DNA of 64,000 bases from Oscillibacter sp. (lineage in GTDB: Bacteria; Bacillota; Clostridia; Oscillospirales; Oscillospiraceae). A program made the position numbers and the translations under genes. Where the stretch lies: assembly GCA_022795445.1 (NCBI GenBank), contig JAAWGR010000004.1, positions 1 to 64,000 on the forward strand. The letters are read 5' to 3'. Of the stretch, positions 1,560 to 12,241 are shown piece by piece. The notes under the pieces were generated by a model, which was not told the DNA's origin, made no database searches, and saw only the letters and a program-made list of their open reading frames with translations. Position 1 is the first letter of the stretch. Every line of letters starts with the position of its first letter.

Positions 1560-2225
1560 TCAGTAGTTCAGCACCTTCCGTATTCTGATTTGCGTGGTGT
1601 ATCCACCGCCGTCCACCGTATGGACCGCCCTTGTGACGATGTATTTCCCGTCCCAGCCTCCAAAGCCTTTGAGCTGGACCGTGACCCCGGCCACCAGCCC
1701 CACGTCTCCTGGCAGGGTGAACGTGGCGGTTTTCGCCAGTTTGTTGTGCAGGCGCAGGTGCTTCTTCGCCAGCGCTTCCGCCTCTCCGGCGCTCCCCACC
1801 TTGGCCGTTATCTCCAGGCATTGGTCCCCGGAAACGTCGGCGTCCTCCGCCGTTCCCTCGATGCACTTCCCCGTGTTCGGGTCCATGTAGCGGACCCGGC
1901 ACTTGGAATACTTGGTGTCCACCGAACCGGAGTGCAGCTTGTACTTGATGTACCCGCCCTTGGCTCCGTTCTCGATGGTAAGGACCGGCGCTTTCGCTTC
2001 ATACTCCGCCTGGTCATACAGCACAAGTTTCCCGTCCGTGGCATTGATGGAGATACCGGCGTCCTGGCATAGCTTTATGAGAAAGTCGATGTCCGTCTGC
2101 TTGGTCTGCTCCATCCGGTCGTAGGACAGGTTTGCGCTGGCTTCATACATACACGTCATGCCGCCGCCCGCTGCGATTTCCGAGGCGATACTGGACAGCG
2201 TGTAATTTTTCCACGCCTTGGATTT
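1560..2225 (-). pseudogene. Phage late control gene D / XkdQ-like baseplate hub protein, C-terminal part (5' truncated)
   Basis: KSKAWKNYTLSSIASEIAAGGGMTCMYEASANLSYDRMEQTKQTDIDFLIKLCQDAGISI... typical gpD-like text; upstream part replaced by tape-measure sequence. Confidence 0.55.
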
Positions 2226-2239
2226 CTTGGTCTACCGCA

Positions 2240-3597
2240 GGCTCTTGGAAAAGGCGAGGCTTGATAGAGGCATACAGGCTTTGGAAGTCATCGTCCGTGG
2301 CGTTCAGGATAGCCAGCAGTCCGTTGTAGCCCCGCATACCCGCGATAGCCATAGCGTTGTTGACCCGCTCGGCCTCGGTCATTTCATCGGAATACCCCCG
2401 CAGGTCCTTCACTGTCTCCATCAGGCCCTTCATGGACCCGTCGAAGTTTACGGCGGAGTAATCCAGTTCTCCAAATGCTTCCGCCGTCAGCGTCACGCTG
2501 CCCAGCAGGCCGTTGAAGATATTGCGCAGGGCCGTTCTAGCGCGGGACCCCTTGACGGCGTTGTTCGCCATCAGGCCCACCATCACGGCCACGTCCTCTA
2601 CGCTGTATCCCAGTGCCCCCGCCACGGAGGAAGAGCTTTTGAACATCTCGCCCATGATGGAGATATTGGTGTTGGAGTTGGCCGTTGCCGCCGCTAGCAC
2701 GTCCGCAAAGTGCGCGGTGTCCGCTGCTCGCAGGCCGAACGCGGATAGGTTGTCCGTCACGATGTCGGACACTTGCGCTAGGTCCTCCCCGGCTGCTGCC
2801 GCCAGATTGATAACGCCGCTCATGCCTCCCAGCATTTCTTGGGCGTCCCAGTCTGCCATTGCCATGTACTCCATAGCGTTTGCGCTCTGCTGTGTGGTAA
2901 ACTTTGTTGTCGCGCCCAGCTCCTTTGCCTCCGCCGTCAGTGCCGACATTTTCGAAATGTTGGAATCCGCGATAGCTTCTACAGCTGACATTGCCTGCTC
3001 AAAGTTTCCTGCAACCTCGACGTACTCCGAATATGCGTCCGCGATTGACTTCATGGCTTCGGCAATCCCAGCGGCGGCAATGGCACCGCCCACCGCTTCG
3101 ATAGCCTGCACACCTGCGTTGCCAAATTCGCCCGCGCCCTTGGAGACTCTCTTCTGCTCTTCGGTCAGCTCTTTGATTTTGGCGGTCAGCTCCGCGTCCT
3201 TGTTGGCAAGGTCGGTTGTGCTTACCCCCGCCGCGTCCAGCCGGTCCTTCATCTCCTCCAGCTTTTGCTTCTGCTTTTCAAGCGCCGCCTCGGTGTTCGT
3301 GATGCGCTATTCCAGTTTGAGCTTTTCCCGCTCCAGCGCGGTTGTAGAGCCAGTGGTTTCCCCGATTTACTTGTTGACAAGTTCATACTGCCGTTTCAGG
3401 TTTTCCAGCTTTTGCGACGTATTCTGTACCGCCGCCTGCTTCTCATAGGCTTTCACGTCCCGCTGAATAGCCTGGAGGTTTTTGATTTCCGCGCCCAGCC
3501 GTATAAATTCCTGCTGTACCTTTGTGAACGTGCCGGAAAATCCGCCGTTCAGCACAGCGTTCAGAACAAAGTCAAACGAATACTGCTTTTGCGCCAC
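2240..3597 (-). pseudogene. Phage tail tape measure protein (TP901 type), two in-frame stops and 3' truncation
   Basis: N-term MAQKQYSFDFVLNAVLNGGFSGTFTKVQQEFIRLGAEI and core NFEQAMSAVEAIADSNISKMSALTAEAKELGATTKFTTQQSANAMEYMAMADWDAQEMLGGM lie in one frame separated by TAA and TAG. Confidence 0.7.
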
Positions 3598-4384: not shown

Positions 4385-4495
4385 GTTTAACCTTTTTCAC
4401 GGTAGAACCCTCCTTCAAGGTATAAAAAAATTAGCTTGCTGGTCGTAAGCTAACTGCTTCTTGCTCCCTGCAAACTAATAGTAACGGCTGCATAG

Positions 4496-4513
4496 TCTCA
4501 TGTTTTAGTGAGA
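4496..4513. promoter_or_regulatory. Inverted repeat TCTCA-N8-TGAGA just upstream of the RM operon promoter (candidate operator)
   Basis: tctca tgttttag tgaga read directly; ends 5 bp upstream of the -35. Confidence 0.4.
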
Positions 4514-4518
4514 TTTTC

Positions 4519-4547
4519 TTGCTTTTTCATGTAATCTATGCTATAAT
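4519..4547 (+). promoter_or_regulatory. Sigma-A type promoter TTGCTT-17 bp-TATAAT for RM operon
   Basis: -35 at 4519-4524, -10 at 4542-4547; RBS CGGAGGA before ATG at 4580. Confidence 0.7.
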
Positions 4548-4579
4548 ATATTGCAAAAATGTAAATCGGAGGAACTGCA

Positions 4580-4807
4580 ATGCCTGTTTCCTATGATAAA
4601 CTTTGGAAAATCCTGATCGATCGAAAAATGACCCGCACAAACCTGAAAGATGCTTCCGGAATCAGCTTTAACATCCTCGCTAAAATGGGGAAAAACGAAT
4701 TCGTTTCCATGGAAAGCCTTTACAAAGTTTGTGCGGCGCTTAATTGTAATGTTAATGATATCTTAGACTTCTTGCCAGAAAGCGAGGGTACAGCAAATGA
4801 CATCTGA
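4580..4807 (+). CDS. Cro/CI-family HTH regulator (possible RM controller)
   Basis: 75 aa 'LWKILIDRKMTRTNLKDASGISFNILAKMGKNEFVSMESLYKVCAALNCNVNDILDF'; overlaps the start of the RM gene. Confidence 0.75.
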   Translation: MPVSYDKLWKILIDRKMTRTNLKDASGISFNILAKMGKNEFVSMESLYKVCAALNCNVNDILDFLPESEGTANDI

Positions 4808-7800
4808 AACGTTAAACGCCCTCAAATCACAAGTTGCCAGCTTGGTGCAGGTTTATCGCAGCCAGTTCCACCAATTCCAACAGGCATCTTACAACGAAAC
4901 TCAGGTACGCGTCGACTTTGTAAACCGCTTTTTCTGCCTCCTTGGCTGGGATGTTGACAACGAGCAAGGTCTTCCGCAGCACTTGCGTGAGGTAACCCAC
5001 GAGGCTACCGTCATTGTAAAAGAAAATGGAGTGGATCGCAGCAAAAAACCAGATTATTCCTTTCGGGTCGGTACAGAACCCCTCTTTTACGTGGAAACAA
5101 AAAAGCCGGCGGTTAACATCACCGTTGACACTGCGCCCGCGTTTCAGCTGCGCCGGTATGGATGGAGTGGCAATCGGAAGATTTCCGTATTAACAAACTT
5201 TACTGACTTCTACATTTATGACTGCACAATCCGGCCAGTCGAAAACGATGACGTTGGCATTGCTATGATTGCTCATTACCACTTTACAGAATATGTGGAC
5301 AAATGGGAAGAAATTTATGCGATGCTGTCCAAGGAATCGGTTTTGAATGGCAATTTTGATCGCCAATTCAGAACAATCAAAGACGCTTTTCGCCGGGAAC
5401 CCTTCGACCAATACTTTTTAGAGCAAATTCGGGCTTGGCGCAATCTGCTGGGGGAAGATATCCTCCTCCACCATCCTGACGTTGACCCCGAGACATTAAA
5501 TATCTTCGTCCAGCGTATTCTGAACCGAACTATTTTTCTCCGTATTTGTGAGGACCGCTGTTTTGAAAAGTATGAAACCCTGCGGAAGATCACCACCTAT
5601 CAAGCGTTAAAAGCATTGTTCGCAGCCTCCGATCAAAAATACGGTTCCGGCCTGTTTGTACTGCTGGGCGAGGACAGTCTTACCGTATCCGATTCGGTTA
5701 TCGTATCAATCTTCCAAAGTTTATACTATCCAAACAACTCCTATGAATTCAGTGTGATCGACCCATACATTATTGGGCAAATTTATGAGCTGTTCCTGGA
5801 TGAAACCCTGGTCATTCAGGATGGATGCCGCATTGCCACAGAAGAAAAACCGGAAGTCGTCGACTCCCAGGGGGCGGTAAACACCCCAAAAAATATTACC
5901 GACATTATTGTAGAAGATACGTTACAGCCCTTATACAAGAATAAATCGCCAGAGGAAACGGCACAGTACCGAATTGGGGATATTTGCTGCGGCTCCGGTA
6001 ATTTTTTGCTGTCCGCATTTGAATATATCGTCAATTTCTATATCGAATACTTTCTACAACATGATAAGGAACATGCTGTCCGCCGGGGATATATTTATCT
6101 GCTGCCCGGCAGCACAAATTATGCGCTTGCATATAGCCTCAAACGGTCCATCCTGAAAAACAATATTTTTGGCGTTGATATTGATCCGCTTGCTGTGGAA
6201 GTTTCAAAATTCAGCCTGTTGCTAAAGGTGCTTGAGAATTCGCCGCCTGAGGAAGTTGAGGCCTACCGGCTTCATTCGCATTGCAGGATCCTTCCTGACC
6301 TTGATGAAAACATCAAAAACGGCAATAGCCTTGTGGATGCTTCCTATGCACTTCTGAACCATGATGTATACAGCAATCTGCCTTTGCTGAATAAACTGAA
6401 AATGCTGGACTGGAACTCCGAATTCGATGGCGGGAAGTTCGATGCAATCATCGGAAATCCTCCTTATATCCGTGTTCAAAACATGGTACACTATTCTCGG
6501 GAGGAATACGACTTTTACAAGAGCGACCTCTCTCCTTATGTGACCGCGGAAACAGAAACTTTGGACAAATATTACCTATTTATCGAAAAAGGACTGTCCC
6601 TCTTGAATGACCATGGCGTTTTGGGATATATTGTGCCACACAAATTCATGAACATAAAATCCGGTGCACCCTTGCGGGAACTCCTTGCGAAACAGGCAAA
6701 TGTGCGGAAAATTCTGCATTTCGGTACCCATCAGGTGTTTGGAGGCCGCAGCACTTACACTTGCATCTTAATCCTCTCTAAGCAGCCAAACACCAACTTT
6801 GAAATTGGATTTGTGCAAAATTGGAACCGCTTCCTCTTTGAGCATCATACGGAGTGCCGGCCCTATCCCTCCGCCTACCTTTCAGGACAGGCTTGGTCCT
6901 TTTTGCCCCAAAACCTCGTTGAGCATTTGGAACGGATTGCCTCCTCCTGCACCCCGTTGTCCAGTCTGGCGGATATTTTCGTGGGCGTACAGACAAGCGC
7001 CGATAACATTTATATCATCCGTGCGGATCGGGAAGATCGTAACTTTATCTATTCTCATGACCGTGAAAACAGGGAATTTAAAATTGAAAAGGGTATTTTG
7101 CGGAAAAGTGTTTACGATACACAGCTTACTTGCTACAAAAAAATCAAAGCAAACTGCTATATCCTCTTCCCGTATACCTACAAACCGGGAAAGAAAAATC
7201 CCGTTTTGTTCAGTTTAGAGGAAATGTCCGGAAAATTCCCGAACGCATTGGCCTATTTACAGGATTTCCGTGAAAAATTAGATTTACGCAATATGCGTAA
7301 CCGCAGAGAACATGAGTGGTATGCCTTCGGACGCAGCCAGAGCATCCGGCGGTTTGTACGCGGCGAACACCTTGTATGGCCAGTACTGTCAGTGGGATCG
7401 AATTATGTCTATGACAATGAACAGGTTGTCTTCACCGGCGGCGGCAATGGCCCTTTCTATGGGCTGGAAATGAAAGCAGGCGCTGAGGAATCCATCTTCT
7501 ACATCCAGGCAGTCCTAAACCACTGGCTTATGGAACTCCTCGTCAAAAACACCGCCAGCACATTCCGGGGTGATTATTATTCTCACGGAAAACAGTTCAT
7601 TGCCACCCTCCCAATTTACAAAATCAACTTTGCCGACCCTGGCGAAGCCAAAATCCACCAAGAAATCGTTGAAAAAGTGCAGACTATCATGCGGCTGAAT
7701 GAACAGGCGGAAATCGCCCCAAACCAATCGCAGAGAACCACCATAGAACGCTCTACCAACGCAGTGCGGAAAATGCTGAATGGGCTGGTCGACCAGCTGT

Positions 7801-7838
7801 ATCAAGTGGAGCGGCAGGAAGACGAGGAAACCGTATGA
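4797..7838 (+). CDS. Eco57I-like (type IIG) fused restriction endonuclease / N6-adenine DNA methyltransferase
   Basis: N-terminal PD-(D/E)XK-like 'KPDYSFRVGTEPLFYVETKKP'; MTase motif I 'DICCGSGNFLL'; motif IV 'FDAIIGNPPYIRVQN'; long C-terminal region likely for target recognition. Confidence 0.8.
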   Translation: MTSETLNALKSQVASLVQVYRSQFHQFQQASYNETQVRVDFVNRFFCLLGWDVDNEQGLPQHLREVTHEATVIVKENGVDRSKKPDYSFRVGTEPLFYVETKKPAVNITVDTAPAFQLRRYGWSGNRKISVLTNFTDFYIYDCTIRPVENDDVGIAMIAHYHFTEYVDKWEEIYAMLSKESVLNGNFDRQFRTIKDAFRREPFDQYFLEQIRAWRNLLGEDILLHHPDVDPETLNIFVQRILNRTIFLRICEDRCFEKYETLRKITTYQALKALFAASDQKYGSGLFVLLGEDSLTVSDSVIVSIFQSLYYPNNSYEFSVIDPYIIGQIYELFLDETLVIQDGCRIATEEKPEVVDSQGAVNTPKNITDIIVEDTLQPLYKNKSPEETAQYRIGDICCGSGNFLLSAFEYIVNFYIEYFLQHDKEHAVRRGYIYLLPGSTNYALAYSLKRSILKNNIFGVDIDPLAVEVSKFSLLLKVLENSPPEEVEAYRLHSHCRILPDLDENIKNGNSLVDASYALLNHDVYSNLPLLNKLKMLDWNSEFDGGKFDAIIGNPPYIRVQNMVHYSREEYDFYKSDLSPYVTAETETLDKYYLFIEKGLSLLNDHGVLGYIVPHKFMNIKSGAPLRELLAKQANVRKILHFGTHQVFGGRSTYTCILILSKQPNTNFEIGFVQNWNRFLFEHHTECRPYPSAYLSGQAWSFLPQNLVEHLERIASSCTPLSSLADIFVGVQTSADNIYIIRADREDRNFIYSHDRENREFKIEKGILRKSVYDTQLTCYKKIKANCYILFPYTYKPGKKNPVLFSLEEMSGKFPNALAYLQDFREKLDLRNMRNRREHEWYAFGRSQSIRRFVRGEHLVWPVLSVGSNYVYDNEQVVFTGGGNGPFYGLEMKAGAEESIFYIQAVLNHWLMELLVKNTASTFRGDYYSHGKQFIATLPIYKINFADPGEAKIHQEIVEKVQTIMRLNEQAEIAPNQSQRTTIERSTNAVRKMLNGLVDQLYQVERQEDEETV

Positions 7839-9469
7839 AGCCGGTTGAGAAATACAATAAATTAAGAGGCGGATATTACACTCCGGCGGAAATCTCTGCG
7901 TTTATCGCTGAGTGGGCAATCCACCGCCCATCCGACCAAGTGCTGGAACCTAGCTGCGGAGATGGCAGTTTTCTGCGTGCAATTGCTGACAGGATTCAAA
8001 TGCTGGGTGGAACAAGAGCTGCTCTCAAAAGGAACGTAATCGGCATCGAACTGGACCACGCCGAGGCACAAAAAGCAGAGCAGCATGGCACAACGGTAAT
8101 CTGTGAGGATTTTTTCACTTACTATGAAAAGCAGATCGATGGAAAAGTTCAATTTGATGCCATTGTAGGCAATCCTCCCTTTATCCGATACCAGAATTTT
8201 GCAGAAGATTACCGTCAAATTGCTTTCTCCTTGATGAATCAGCATGGCTTTCACCCGAACCGCTTAACGAACATTTGGCTTCCCTTTCTCCTTCTATCCT
8301 GCAAAGCGCTGAAACCAGGGGGGCGGGTCGGTATGGTGATCCCAGCAGAGCTGTTCCAGGTAGACTACGCTGCTGAAGCACGCCAGTTTTTGAGCGATTA
8401 CTTTGACAAGCTGACGCTGATTACATTTAAATATCTGGTCTTTGAGGATATTCAGCAGGAGGTCGTTTTGCTGTTCGGGGAACGGCGTTCCACAGAGCAA
8501 GGGATTCGGGTTGTGGAACTTAACGGGCTGCCGGATTTGATAAAACAGGGACAGGCCTGCTTTGAAAATACCGAGGTGAAACGACTTGACCATAGTCGCG
8601 ACAAGTGGGTAAAATATTACCTTTCCAACGAAGAATTGGAACTTCTTACGCGTTTGAATGCTGACCCAAGAATCTCCAATGCCGCCGATCTTTTTGTGGT
8701 AAACGTCGGCCTTGTCAGCGGTGAAAACGCCTTTTTCATCGCAAATCAAAATACCGTTCAAGAACATCATCTGCAAGCGTGTACACTGCCGGTTATCAGC
8801 CGTTCGGAACAACTGAAGGGCATCCAGCTGACAGACGGCGATTATTTGAATTTGATTGCAGCTGGTAAAAAAGTGTTTTTTTTCTTCGCTGAAAATGTTC
8901 CCTTTGATGAGTTGTCCAAAGAACAGAAACAATATATTCAATGGGGCGAAGCACATGGATTCCATGAAAACTACAAATGTCGGATTCGTCCAAATTGGTA
9001 CCATGTACCACAGACTTGGCATGGGGATGCGTTTTTGATCCGGCAGGCGCACAGGTATCCACGGATGATACTGAACCAGACAGATGCTCTTGTAACAGAT
9101 ACACTGCACAAAGTGCAGTTTTTAGACGGCGCACAAGGGACGCATATTGCAGCGGCATTTCTGAACACGTACACTTTTGCACTGAGCGAAACCATTGGCC
9201 GGAGTTACGGCGGCGGCGTTTTGACGTTTGAGCCAGGGGAAATCCGTAAAATGCGCATTCCGTTGAAACTGGCGGAAAAGCTGGATTTGCAGCAAATCGA
9301 CGCTTGGCAGCGCAAGGGGCAGATCGACCAAATTTTAGCCTGTACCGATCAGGTTCTGCTTCGGGATGGTCTGAACCTTACCGAATATGAAATCACACTT
9401 CTGCACAAAATCTGGGACAAACTGCGGAACCGACGCATGGCCCGGAAAAATCAAAAGAACAAACGGTAA
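7835..9469 (+). CDS. N6-adenine DNA methyltransferase (second MTase of RM operon)
   Basis: 'GGYYTPAEISAFIAEWAI', 'VLEPSCGDGSFLRAI', 'FDAIVGNPPFIRYQN'; ATGA overlap with the upstream gene. Confidence 0.85.
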   Translation: MKPVEKYNKLRGGYYTPAEISAFIAEWAIHRPSDQVLEPSCGDGSFLRAIADRIQMLGGTRAALKRNVIGIELDHAEAQKAEQHGTTVICEDFFTYYEKQIDGKVQFDAIVGNPPFIRYQNFAEDYRQIAFSLMNQHGFHPNRLTNIWLPFLLLSCKALKPGGRVGMVIPAELFQVDYAAEARQFLSDYFDKLTLITFKYLVFEDIQQEVVLLFGERRSTEQGIRVVELNGLPDLIKQGQACFENTEVKRLDHSRDKWVKYYLSNEELELLTRLNADPRISNAADLFVVNVGLVSGENAFFIANQNTVQEHHLQACTLPVISRSEQLKGIQLTDGDYLNLIAAGKKVFFFFAENVPFDELSKEQKQYIQWGEAHGFHENYKCRIRPNWYHVPQTWHGDAFLIRQAHRYPRMILNQTDALVTDTLHKVQFLDGAQGTHIAAAFLNTYTFALSETIGRSYGGGVLTFEPGEIRKMRIPLKLAEKLDLQQIDAWQRKGQIDQILACTDQVLLRDGLNLTEYEITLLHKIWDKLRNRRMARKNQKNKR

Positions 9470-9492
9470 CGACGCCTCCCGCTTCCACGCAA

Positions 9493-9521
9493 AAGAACCG
9501 CCTCTAAAAGAGGCGGTTCTT
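9493..9521. terminator. Intrinsic terminator hairpin between RM operon and PBP gene
   Basis: AAGAACCGCCTC-TAAAA-GAGGCGGTTCTT, perfect 12 bp stem. Confidence 0.8.
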
Positions 9522-9538
9522 CCTTGTTTGATGGGTGG

Positions 9539-12241
9539 CTATCCACCGTTGTTCCACATCCCCTCCCACCAGTCTCCGGAGGTGGGGTCCTGAGGCGTCT
9601 CCGGCTCCGCGGGGGCCGGAGGGTCTACCGTCGGCAATGATGGCGGATCTGGCTCCGGTGTCACGATTGGCGGGGTCGTCGTCCCTGGATCTGGTGTACT
9701 GGGAGTCGTCGGTGTTGTGGGAGTTGTAGGTGTGGTCGGCGTTGTGGGCTGGGTCGGGTCCGCTAGGGGATTGTCTGGGTTGTTGGGATCGAACTCCGGC
9801 AAATCCGGATCATTCTCCGGGTCCACTATGCCTGTGCCTGTATGGGCAGGACAGCCTTCCTCCGCTTTGGGAATATTTCGGAGCAGATAAGCATCGTCCG
9901 ACGCCGCAATACCGTAGTCCGGACGGTCATAGTCCAAATATGCCCGCTCAACCACCGATTCCTCCGGACAGTCTTCCGTTGCCAAGCAATGGCCGTCCAC
10001 GCAGTAACGCACAACCGTGTGGAGGCTGCACGATTCTGATGGGGCAGAGCCTGCCGCCGCCAAGTAGGACACCACACGGCTCCCGCGGGGATCGGCGCTG
10101 CACGCGGCAGTGGCTTTCAGACCGCTGTCCTTGCAGACGGTGATCGTCTCCAAGCCCGTGGCAGGCCTCTCAAACTCTTTGTTGGGAAGATCCGCATGAA
10201 TCTGCTCCATGACCTTCTTCCACATCGTAATGGCTGGGTTTGTGTAACCGGCGCTGATCTTGGCATTGAACTTATAGCCTGTCCACACTGCGGCCACATA
10301 ATAAGGCGTGAAGCCCGCAAAATAACGGTCGTAATTGTCGTTCGTGGTGCCAGTCTTGCCCGCGACGTTCATGCCGCTGATGCGGGCGGCGGTACCGGTG
10401 CCGTTTTCTACCGCGTTTTGCAGCATATTCGTCATCAGGTACGCAGTGCTTTCCTTCATGGCAATGTGGCTCTCGCTCTCGTTGTCCAGGACCACTTCCT
10501 CTGTGCCGGTGGCGGTCGTCCGGGTTACACGCACGTACGTCCGGGGAGAATTGTATATGCCGTGGTTCACGAAAGTCGCATACGCCGCTGCCATCTCCAT
10601 CGTATTCAGGCCCCGAGTCAGGCCGCCCATACCCAGGGATGCAAGGGACATATCCTCAGGTTCCAAGTGCAGGCCCAGATTTTCTGTCGCGAAGGCGTAG
10701 GCCGCTTCAATGCCAACCGATTGCAGCGACTGGACAGCGATGGTATTGATCGACCGCTGGAGGCCCTCCCGAACGGAAGTAAAGCCAGTGAAGGTATTCG
10801 GTGAGTTTTTCGGCCAGGGGCTGTTGTTCAACAGCTGCACTGGGTAGTTATCAAAAGCGGTGCCTGGGGTGATTGTCCCAGCGTCCAGGGCCGGGGCGTA
10901 GGCCGTCAGGGGTTTCATGGAGGAGCCCACCTGACGCCGGTCCATGGCGTAGCTCATGATGAGGTTGCCGCTTTTCTCGCCGATGTCTCCCACCGTTGCC
11001 ACAACATTGCCGGTGGATGGTTCAACAATCGTAATACCGGAACGGATTTGCTGTCCGTCACGGCTGACGAGGTCCAGGTTACTGCGGTCTTCGTAGACAG
11101 ATTCTGCAATTGCTTGTATGTGGGGGTCCAGCGTTGTATAAATGTGATAGCCGCTGTTATAGAGCCGCAGGCGCGCCTCCTCAATCTCAATACCATATTC
11201 GCTGGCCAGGTCGGCAGACACATCCCGGATCACCTGATCAACAAACCAGGAGTTGATCTCTATGCCGCCAGTGGCCTCCTCTACGATTTGGTCGGCAGAG
11301 GTAGAGCCATCGGAAAATTGCAGAACCTCTGCTTTTGCAGCCTCCGCCTGCGCCTGGGTGATATAGGGAAGGCCAGTCTCTGGGTTGATGATCTCCGCCA
11401 TCTTGTCCAGAACCCAGCCCTGGCGGGTCTTATTGGCCTCCCGTGGGGTCGTGGTGGTGCCGTCCTCCCGGGTAATGGTAATGTTGTACATGGGGCCATA
11501 CATGGAAGGGTTGTTCGTAATGGCAATGAGGCTGGCACACTCTGCCAGGTCCAGTTCGGAAACATCCTTGCCGAAATAAAATTGGGCTGCGGTCTGGACA
11601 CCGTAGCAGCCTTTCCCCAGGTAAATGAAATTGAGGTAAAGCTCCAAGATATCCTCTTTACTATAATTTTTCTCGAACTCCAGCGCCCGGAAAATCTCCC
11701 GGATTTTCCGGTTGATATAGGGCTTGTTGTCCCGGGTCATATTTTTCAGCACCTGCTGGGTGATGGTAGAGCCGCCGTAGCTGCCGTCACCCATCGCCAG
11801 CTCCTTCACAGCGCCCAGCGTCCGTATCCAGTCAACGCCCTCATGCTGGAAGAAACGTTGATCCTCAATCGCAACAGCCGCCTGCCACAAGTAATCGGGA
11901 ATTTGGTCGAAGTCCACCAGGATGCGGTTTTCGGTGCCATGGACGCTCTGGAACTCCACCCACTCACCGGTCTCTTTATCCTGGTAATAAATAAAGGAAC
12001 TGAGGTTCATGGTGTAGTCCTCGGCGCGGACTTGCAGGGACGGCGTGAGAGATGTATTCACATATTTCAAGAAGAAATATCCCATAATGGCAGCCGTGCA
12101 GACACCGATCAGGAGCAGGGTCCATATGGTGAGGAAAAGTCCGCTAAAGATGCGGCCCATCATACGCAGCGGGGAGCTTTTCCGGCGTTTTTTATGGCGT
12201 TCAGGCTTTCCCGACGGCGGAGTCTTTCTTTCACGATCCAA
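9539..12241 (-). CDS. Class A penicillin-binding protein (PBP1A family)
   Basis: TM anchor; 'AIEDQRFFQHEGVDW', 'GGSTITQQVLKN' transglycosylase motifs; 'RQVGSSMKPLTAYAPAL', 'AGKTGTTNDNYDRYFAGFTPYYVAAVWTGY'. Confidence 0.95.
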   Translation of the reverse strand: MDRERKTPPSGKPERHKKRRKSSPLRMMGRIFSGLFLTIWTLLLIGVCTAAIMGYFFLKYVNTSLTPSLQVRAEDYTMNLSSFIYYQDKETGEWVEFQSVHGTENRILVDFDQIPDYLWQAAVAIEDQRFFQHEGVDWIRTLGAVKELAMGDGSYGGSTITQQVLKNMTRDNKPYINRKIREIFRALEFEKNYSKEDILELYLNFIYLGKGCYGVQTAAQFYFGKDVSELDLAECASLIAITNNPSMYGPMYNITITREDGTTTTPREANKTRQGWVLDKMAEIINPETGLPYITQAQAEAAKAEVLQFSDGSTSADQIVEEATGGIEINSWFVDQVIRDVSADLASEYGIEIEEARLRLYNSGYHIYTTLDPHIQAIAESVYEDRSNLDLVSRDGQQIRSGITIVEPSTGNVVATVGDIGEKSGNLIMSYAMDRRQVGSSMKPLTAYAPALDAGTITPGTAFDNYPVQLLNNSPWPKNSPNTFTGFTSVREGLQRSINTIAVQSLQSVGIEAAYAFATENLGLHLEPEDMSLASLGMGGLTRGLNTMEMAAAYATFVNHGIYNSPRTYVRVTRTTATGTEEVVLDNESESHIAMKESTAYLMTNMLQNAVENGTGTAARISGMNVAGKTGTTNDNYDRYFAGFTPYYVAAVWTGYKFNAKISAGYTNPAITMWKKVMEQIHADLPNKEFERPATGLETITVCKDSGLKATAACSADPRGSRVVSYLAAAGSAPSESCSLHTVVRYCVDGHCLATEDCPEESVVERAYLDYDRPDYGIAASDDAYLLRNIPKAEEGCPAHTGTGIVDPENDPDLPEFDPNNPDNPLADPTQPTTPTTPTTPTTPTTPSTPDPGTTTPPIVTPEPDPPSLPTVDPPAPAEPETPQDPTSGDWWEGMWNNGG

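Follow-up and report, generated by a model that had tools for sequence, protein, structure and literature searches.

The window (the whole stretch of 64,000 nucleotides analysed here) contains what is probably a horizontally acquired, Eco57I-like Type IIG restriction-modification (RM) operon governed by a VanU-type autoregulator that restrains the operon as a whole. The reading of its genes as an Eco57I-type nuclease-methylase, an adenine methylase, and a linked regulator is supported by profiles, conserved active sites, and purifying selection. The enzymes are, as judged from their sequences, a fresh member of an already known Eco57I-like type, and the part worth following is the VanU-type control module, portable across restriction types, rather than the enzymes.

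Restriction control on entry into an unprotected cell is known mainly from classical C proteins, with Type II nucleases. We lean towards the broader view that regulators of the VanU type are general restriction/defence controllers, a class not named before, of the host's order and of related Clostridia, in which a portable regulator-operator-promoter module with a recognition-helix/operator code has been exchanged between Type I, Type II, and Type IIG systems, placing whole operons under negative autoregulation. If this is true, the VanU-type module before Type I, C5, N6, and Type IIG systems would amount to a general layer of defence control in gut Clostridia, and its operator code, which is simple and testable, would offer a sequence handle for finding further defence operons.

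Operon Layout

The operon has the following features (coordinates in the window).

4496..4513, + strand: predicted operator of the regulator, TCTCATGTTTTAGTGAGA (from spacing, helix co-variation, and pattern searches)
4519..4547, + strand: promoter, with −35 TTGCTT (4519-4524), a 17-bp spacer, and an extended −10 TGCTATAAT (TATAAT at 4542-4547)
4568-4572, + strand: ribosome-binding site GGAGG of the regulator gene
4580..4807, + strand: 75-aa HTH_26 (Xre-type) regulator, VanU-like (from Pfam, phmmer, and Foldseek)
4797..7838, + strand: 1013-aa Type IIG nuclease-methyltransferase (RM) (from domains, PADLOC, catalytic residues, and selection)
7835..9469, + strand: 544-aa m6A DNA methyltransferase of the M.Eco57I family (from PF22837, PADLOC, and NPPF)
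9493..9521, no strand assigned: intrinsic terminator, 13-bp stem and 3-base loop (longest stem in a scan of 4400-9600)

The preliminary description, made from the letters of the DNA, had proposed a compact, overlapping three-gene RM operon; its three open reading frames (ORFs) and both overlaps (11 bp and 4 bp) were confirmed. The one common promoter that it proposed is seen as a single promoter 5′ of the first gene; this falls under the threshold of a generic promoter scan, yet is conserved in relatives, with TTG and TATA invariant and the TG of the extended −10 (TG-n-TATAAT) conserved in a position-by-position alignment with ten loci. The terminator said to close the operon was likewise found, with a modest T-tract, and may be shared with a convergent PBP gene ending at 9539.

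The Enzymes

The second gene carries the Pfam domains HSDR_N, Eco57I (141 bits), and N6_Mtase, with a weak TaqI_C match (specificity region), and the third carries M_Eco57I_C (PF22837; 126 bits, cut-off 27) and N6_Mtase; PADLOC assigns them, both at full length, to a Type IIG restriction-methyltransferase (927 bits) and a Type II methyltransferase (MTase_II; 578 bits), respectively. The nuclease centre of the RM protein comprises P85-D86...E100-T-K102 and Q117-x3-Y121, and its methylase part has motif I from D395 (DICCGSGNF) and NPPY at residues 554-557; the separate methylase has EPSCGDG from residue 38 and NPPF at 113-116. The ETK nuclease centre and NPPY claimed earlier for the fused enzyme, and the NPPF of the next gene, were therefore all located. 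Missing catalytic residues, which the preliminary description had named as the sign that would count against it, are not seen on alignment: E34, D86, E100, K102, Q117, Y121, and the NPPY of the RM protein are invariant across nine sequences. Two marks of the Eco57I-type IIG class are thereby present: the fusion of a PD-(D/E)xK nuclease with an NPPY adenine methylase in one polypeptide, and a separate methylase of the M.Eco57I family (PF22837). An AlphaFold2 model of the RM protein (P0002) was set aside (pLDDT 66.5, with most of the nuclease region below 50).

Comparison of the window with its same-genus relative gave a dN of about 0.2 for all three genes with synonymous sites saturated, indicating that all three are under purifying selection; with the conserved active sites, this agrees with the earlier suggestion of an intact operon kept by selection. 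A copy of the cassette at locus L022 has decayed (broken frame, operator lost) and another, in genome G697, has an in-frame stop, so nuclease function does get lost in this cassette family, and the window operon might by analogy no longer restrict and act as a methylation system (epigenetic marker) only. We regard this as improbable, because the nuclease residues listed above (E34 to Y121) are present and invariant across aligned relatives and the whole RM gene is under purifying selection.

Eco57I, AcuI, and Cac824II are Type IIG enzymes with one separate methylase and the recognition sequence CTGAAG; in the Eco57I type, cleavage is 16/14 at CTGAAG, cutting is stimulated by AdoMet, and the RM protein methylates one strand. 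The window enzymes resemble these in combining a fusion of about 1000 aa, of a PD-(D/E)xK nuclease with a gamma-class adenine methylase, with an M.Eco57I-family partner; unlike them, the window genes form an HTH-RM-M operon under a VanU-type regulator. Cac824II, with CA_C3534 just downstream, is a biochemically proven clostridial case of the Eco57I type (PMC4736252). Because identity between the window RM protein and a 997-aa relative encoded by an Acinetobacter plasmid is only 33%, and their C-terminal motifs are unlike (TGGGNGP...YYSHGKQF versus SSGGTAG...FIARGTK), CTGAAG specificity is not assumed for it.

The Eco57I-type layout recognized in the preliminary description fits as regards gene content, but gene order differs among relatives. 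The methylase gene of the Acinetobacter plasmid is convergent with the RM gene, and an alphaproteobacterial relative (Ancylobacter plasmid) has the order CopG regulator-M-RM; the enzymes are thus Eco57I-like, with a control arrangement unlike that of these relatives. The order HTH-RM-M, in one direction, is found in nearly all relatives at about 60% identity or more, in several families and with otherwise unrelated upstream DNA; relatives at 32-43% identity have the RM gene, and mostly the methylase gene, without this HTH.

The Regulator

The first gene encodes an HTH_26 protein (Pfam, 57 bits). The best Foldseek match of its structural model (pLDDT 89; recognition helix at residues 30-37) is VanUg (3TYR; E 5e-7, TM 0.82, 52% identity on the fold alignment), and phmmer matches it to 3TYR at 1.6e-17. 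The regulator is homologous to VanU_G and has the VanU_G fold, although at 79.6 bits it lies below the 150-bit cut-off of the strict VanU equivalog (NF000090, NCBIfam); no model in the PADLOC library matches it. The small linked Cro/CI regulator of the preliminary description holds as a small HTH protein linked to RM genes, and is here refined to a VanU-like protein rather than a classical C protein.

VanU_G is a negative autoregulator; in its own promoter, between −70 and −20, it binds two imperfect palindromes (PMC4405338). Like VanU_G, from the vanG vancomycin-resistance operon, the window regulator is a small Xre-type protein encoded by the first gene of its operon, and its predicted operator lies in the same −70 to −20 promoter zone. 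Unlike VanU_G, it heads RM genes instead of a two-component system, and its recognition helix has SFN where 3TYR has SKS; a second palindrome is not evident in the window.

Assignment to the classical C proteins was rejected by sequence family (HTH_26, with VanUg as the closest solved relative, as opposed to C.AhdI/C.BclI), by operon plan, and by C-box. C.BclI is remote from the regulator (Foldseek E 0.007, 22% identity; profile search E 0.0047), and C.AhdI is likewise a remote fold relative. The separate methylase gene is co-directional with the RM gene, with an overlap of 4 bp; in the systems of those C proteins that have been studied, the regulator's operon includes the nuclease gene but not the methylase gene (PMC5282649). 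The predicted operator also lacks the GACT/AGTC core by which the C-box is defined (PMC5282649). The regulator nonetheless resembles C.BclI, C.AhdI, and C.Esp1396I: it is a very small HTH protein whose gene accompanies a restriction system, and its own promoter is probably its target.

The HsdC proteins of Mollicutes are a family of operon-heading regulators associated with Type I as well as Type II systems; in vitro evidence indicates that HsdC binds its own promoter, and repression by it is indirectly supported (PMC5282649). The window regulator also heads its operon, and its family is linked to several restriction types; by comparison with the published description of HsdC, the TCTCA-N8-TGAGA palindrome of the window differs from the direct repeats GTGTTA-N5 of HsdC. 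A literature search, with subscription journals mostly outside its reach, returned no paper joining HTH_26 or VanU with restriction-modification.

Operator and Recognition Helix

The preliminary description was silent on the operator at 4496-4513 and on a regulator-operator unit common to unrelated restriction systems. The operator is the sole match in the window at three or fewer mismatches (0.03 expected). This palindrome, five bases 5′ of the −35, is, besides the promoter, the block kept in relatives with unrelated upstream DNA, and its spacing to the −35 is exactly kept in 10 loci that otherwise have mostly unrelated DNA upstream. Regulators of the same class share the residues SFN (29-31, at the start of model helix 30-37) and the operator-promoter pattern YTCAY-N7-TGAGA-N4-C-TTG-N20-TATAMT. 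The operator, at one mismatch or fewer, accompanies 11 of 13 SFN regulators versus 4 of 61 others (Fisher 2e-8, an optimistic value since some SFN loci, three among those tested, are near-identical); several test loci are related by descent (L065 and L066 have upstream DNA in common), and the number of independent events is therefore smaller than that of loci.

At L018 and L030, where the enzymes are 73% alike, the regulator has diverged (50%) and a different palindrome, TCAAAATAATTTTGA, stands at the operator position. The same SFN helix, for its part, goes with the same operator before quite different genes (C5 methylases, an N6 methylase, and the genes of L147 and L145). The predicted operator sequence tracks the recognition helix rather than the genes that follow. 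Across all HTH homologues, upstream palindromes were no stronger than those of shuffled sequences (p≤0.05 for 7 of 68; median p 0.48); what supports the operator is therefore co-variation, spacing, and pattern searches.

Two of these loci have unusual gene contents. L147 (G1017:C52:1-8100) encodes in one run an SFN regulator, a distant Eco57I-like RM protein, an M.Eco57I-type methylase, SIR2, and a HerA helicase, and is by its predicted products a composite defence operon. L145 (2033-6460, − strand) encodes an SFN regulator, an 841-aa protein without a Pfam match, whose first 490 aa had no PADLOC match, and a 623-aa DUF2357/PDDEXK_7 protein; the pair is possibly an undescribed nuclease system.

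A second operator class accompanies regulators with the helix FSANIIT (L015:10854-11109, L084, L087, and L093). Its TCAC-N6-GTGA palindrome lies over the spacer and adjoins its own −10, which is, as predicted from the promoter layout, a repressing position.

The strict operator-promoter pattern, searched in 295 genomes of the order, found two sites, that of the window and a new one before an SFN-class regulator. A second pattern, with one mismatch allowed, found ten sites in 401 genomes of the family: the window, five known, and four new, all four preceding SFN-class regulators; the genes after these regulators encode an N6 methylase in three cases, the three being closely related, and a C5 methylase in the fourth. 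Reversed-pattern controls gave no sites in the 295 or the 401 genomes. Both searches together gave ten sites besides that of the window, five of them known before; all ten precede SFN-class regulators, all lie within one bacterial order, and four of the five previously unseen sites lead into a DNA methyltransferase gene. The host genome has one operator-promoter match only and no second promoter of this kind.

At L142 / L144 (G306:C9), the operator-regulator unit stands before the gene of an ECF-type sigma factor, in the vicinity of ABC-transporter-like genes; the module is thus also used outside defence and is not exclusive to restriction.

Mode of Control

The operator lies just 5′ of a poor −35 (TTGCTT) with invariant spacing, a usual geometry for contact with RNA polymerase. 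Together with the remote fold relationship to C.BclI and C.AhdI, this is what one would expect of a classical C protein that activates the promoter from an upstream site, such that the nuclease appears late in a new cell. This alternative seems unlikely, if worth keeping in mind: the closest characterised relative, VanU_G, represses (PMC4405338), the methylase is in the same transcript, so that delaying the operon would not separate methylase from nuclease, and the palindrome of the sister FSANIIT class is in a repressing position.

Under negative autoregulation, the reading preferred here, a dimer of the regulator would bind the predicted operator and repress the single promoter. Newly arrived in a naive cell, the operon would start out derepressed, with a burst of both enzymes, and the accumulating regulator would then keep expression low and steady. 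By analogy with Eco57I, the fused enzyme would recognize an asymmetric site, cut some distance away from it if the DNA is unmodified, and methylate one strand, and the separate methylase would complete protection. Regulator, operator, and promoter may travel together as a single portable unit of control that has become joined to Type I, C5, N6, and Type IIG systems.

Linkage to Restriction Genes

At least one match to the regulator profile occurs in half of 301 same-family genomes. Among the 29 best homologues with DNA on both sides, a restriction gene lies within 1.5 kb downstream in 18, and within the upstream side of the same loci, used as the control, in none (0/29; leave-self-out blastp); the sample includes near-identical systems (L066/L068; L070/L077/L081), and collapsing these lowers the count while the contrast stays. 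The next genes encode C5 methylases, HsdM, HsdR, D12 and N6/N4 methylases, and Mrr, and other defence-like products (DUF4011 helicase, Z1, SIR2, TIR, and Fic); exceptions are DUF1538, a subtilase, a conjugation coupling protein, and a sigma factor.

This one-sided linkage argues against a reading in which an ordinary Eco57I-like system merely has beside it, as a bystander from neighbouring mobile DNA, an HTH gene with no role in the operon. In favour of that reading, the host family has many HTH_26 proteins, a decayed phage module adjoins the operon, and two loci at about 59-60% identity (L019 and L021) have the enzymes with no HTH detected. Such a bystander is nevertheless very improbable, given that the place and overlap of the HTH gene are kept in relatives from different families, and that it is under purifying selection and has its promoter in common with the enzymes.

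Elsewhere in the same genome (L138; G000:C133:9000-19739), an HTH of the regulator family heads a set of genes that includes a PAPS-reductase-domain (DndC-like) protein, DUF4007, a weakly DUF6079-like 1221-aa protein, and a class-V aminotransferase; from its predicted products, the set looks like a DNA phosphorothioation system.

Distribution and Origin

The cassette was found in one of 60 sampled same-genus genomes (G021, 71% identity), where its neighbours are a hybrid histidine kinase, a Na/alanine symporter, and an amidohydrolase, and where it and the PBP gene are on different contigs; copies 58-75% identical occur in other families and orders of Clostridia. This patchy occurrence at different genomic sites points to horizontal transfer, by which the cassette was apparently acquired. 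Phage records contained partial relatives of the cassette and no full one.

The operon in the window is flanked on one side by a decayed phage tail module and on the other by the PBP gene, which is present in 31 of 31 good-quality same-genus genomes. From a reading of translations, the downstream neighbour of the PBP gene varies among the loci examined: the closest species has a RecD-like helicase there, and others have a gene resembling spoIIGA. The RM/phage block therefore looks like an insertion. The badly decayed mobile DNA described earlier beside the operon was found as a truncated tape-measure gene and a tail-protein fragment (1560-3597, − strand): the former is a 369-aa fragment, and the latter matches only the middle of phrog_52.

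The decayed cassette at L022 is in Clostridium sporosphaeroides DSM 1294; its RM frame is disrupted close to residue 590, and it lacks the operator-promoter. The genome of the window has another Eco57I-domain gene (L003 / L139; G000:C47:3891-4193), with an open frame of about 750 aa.
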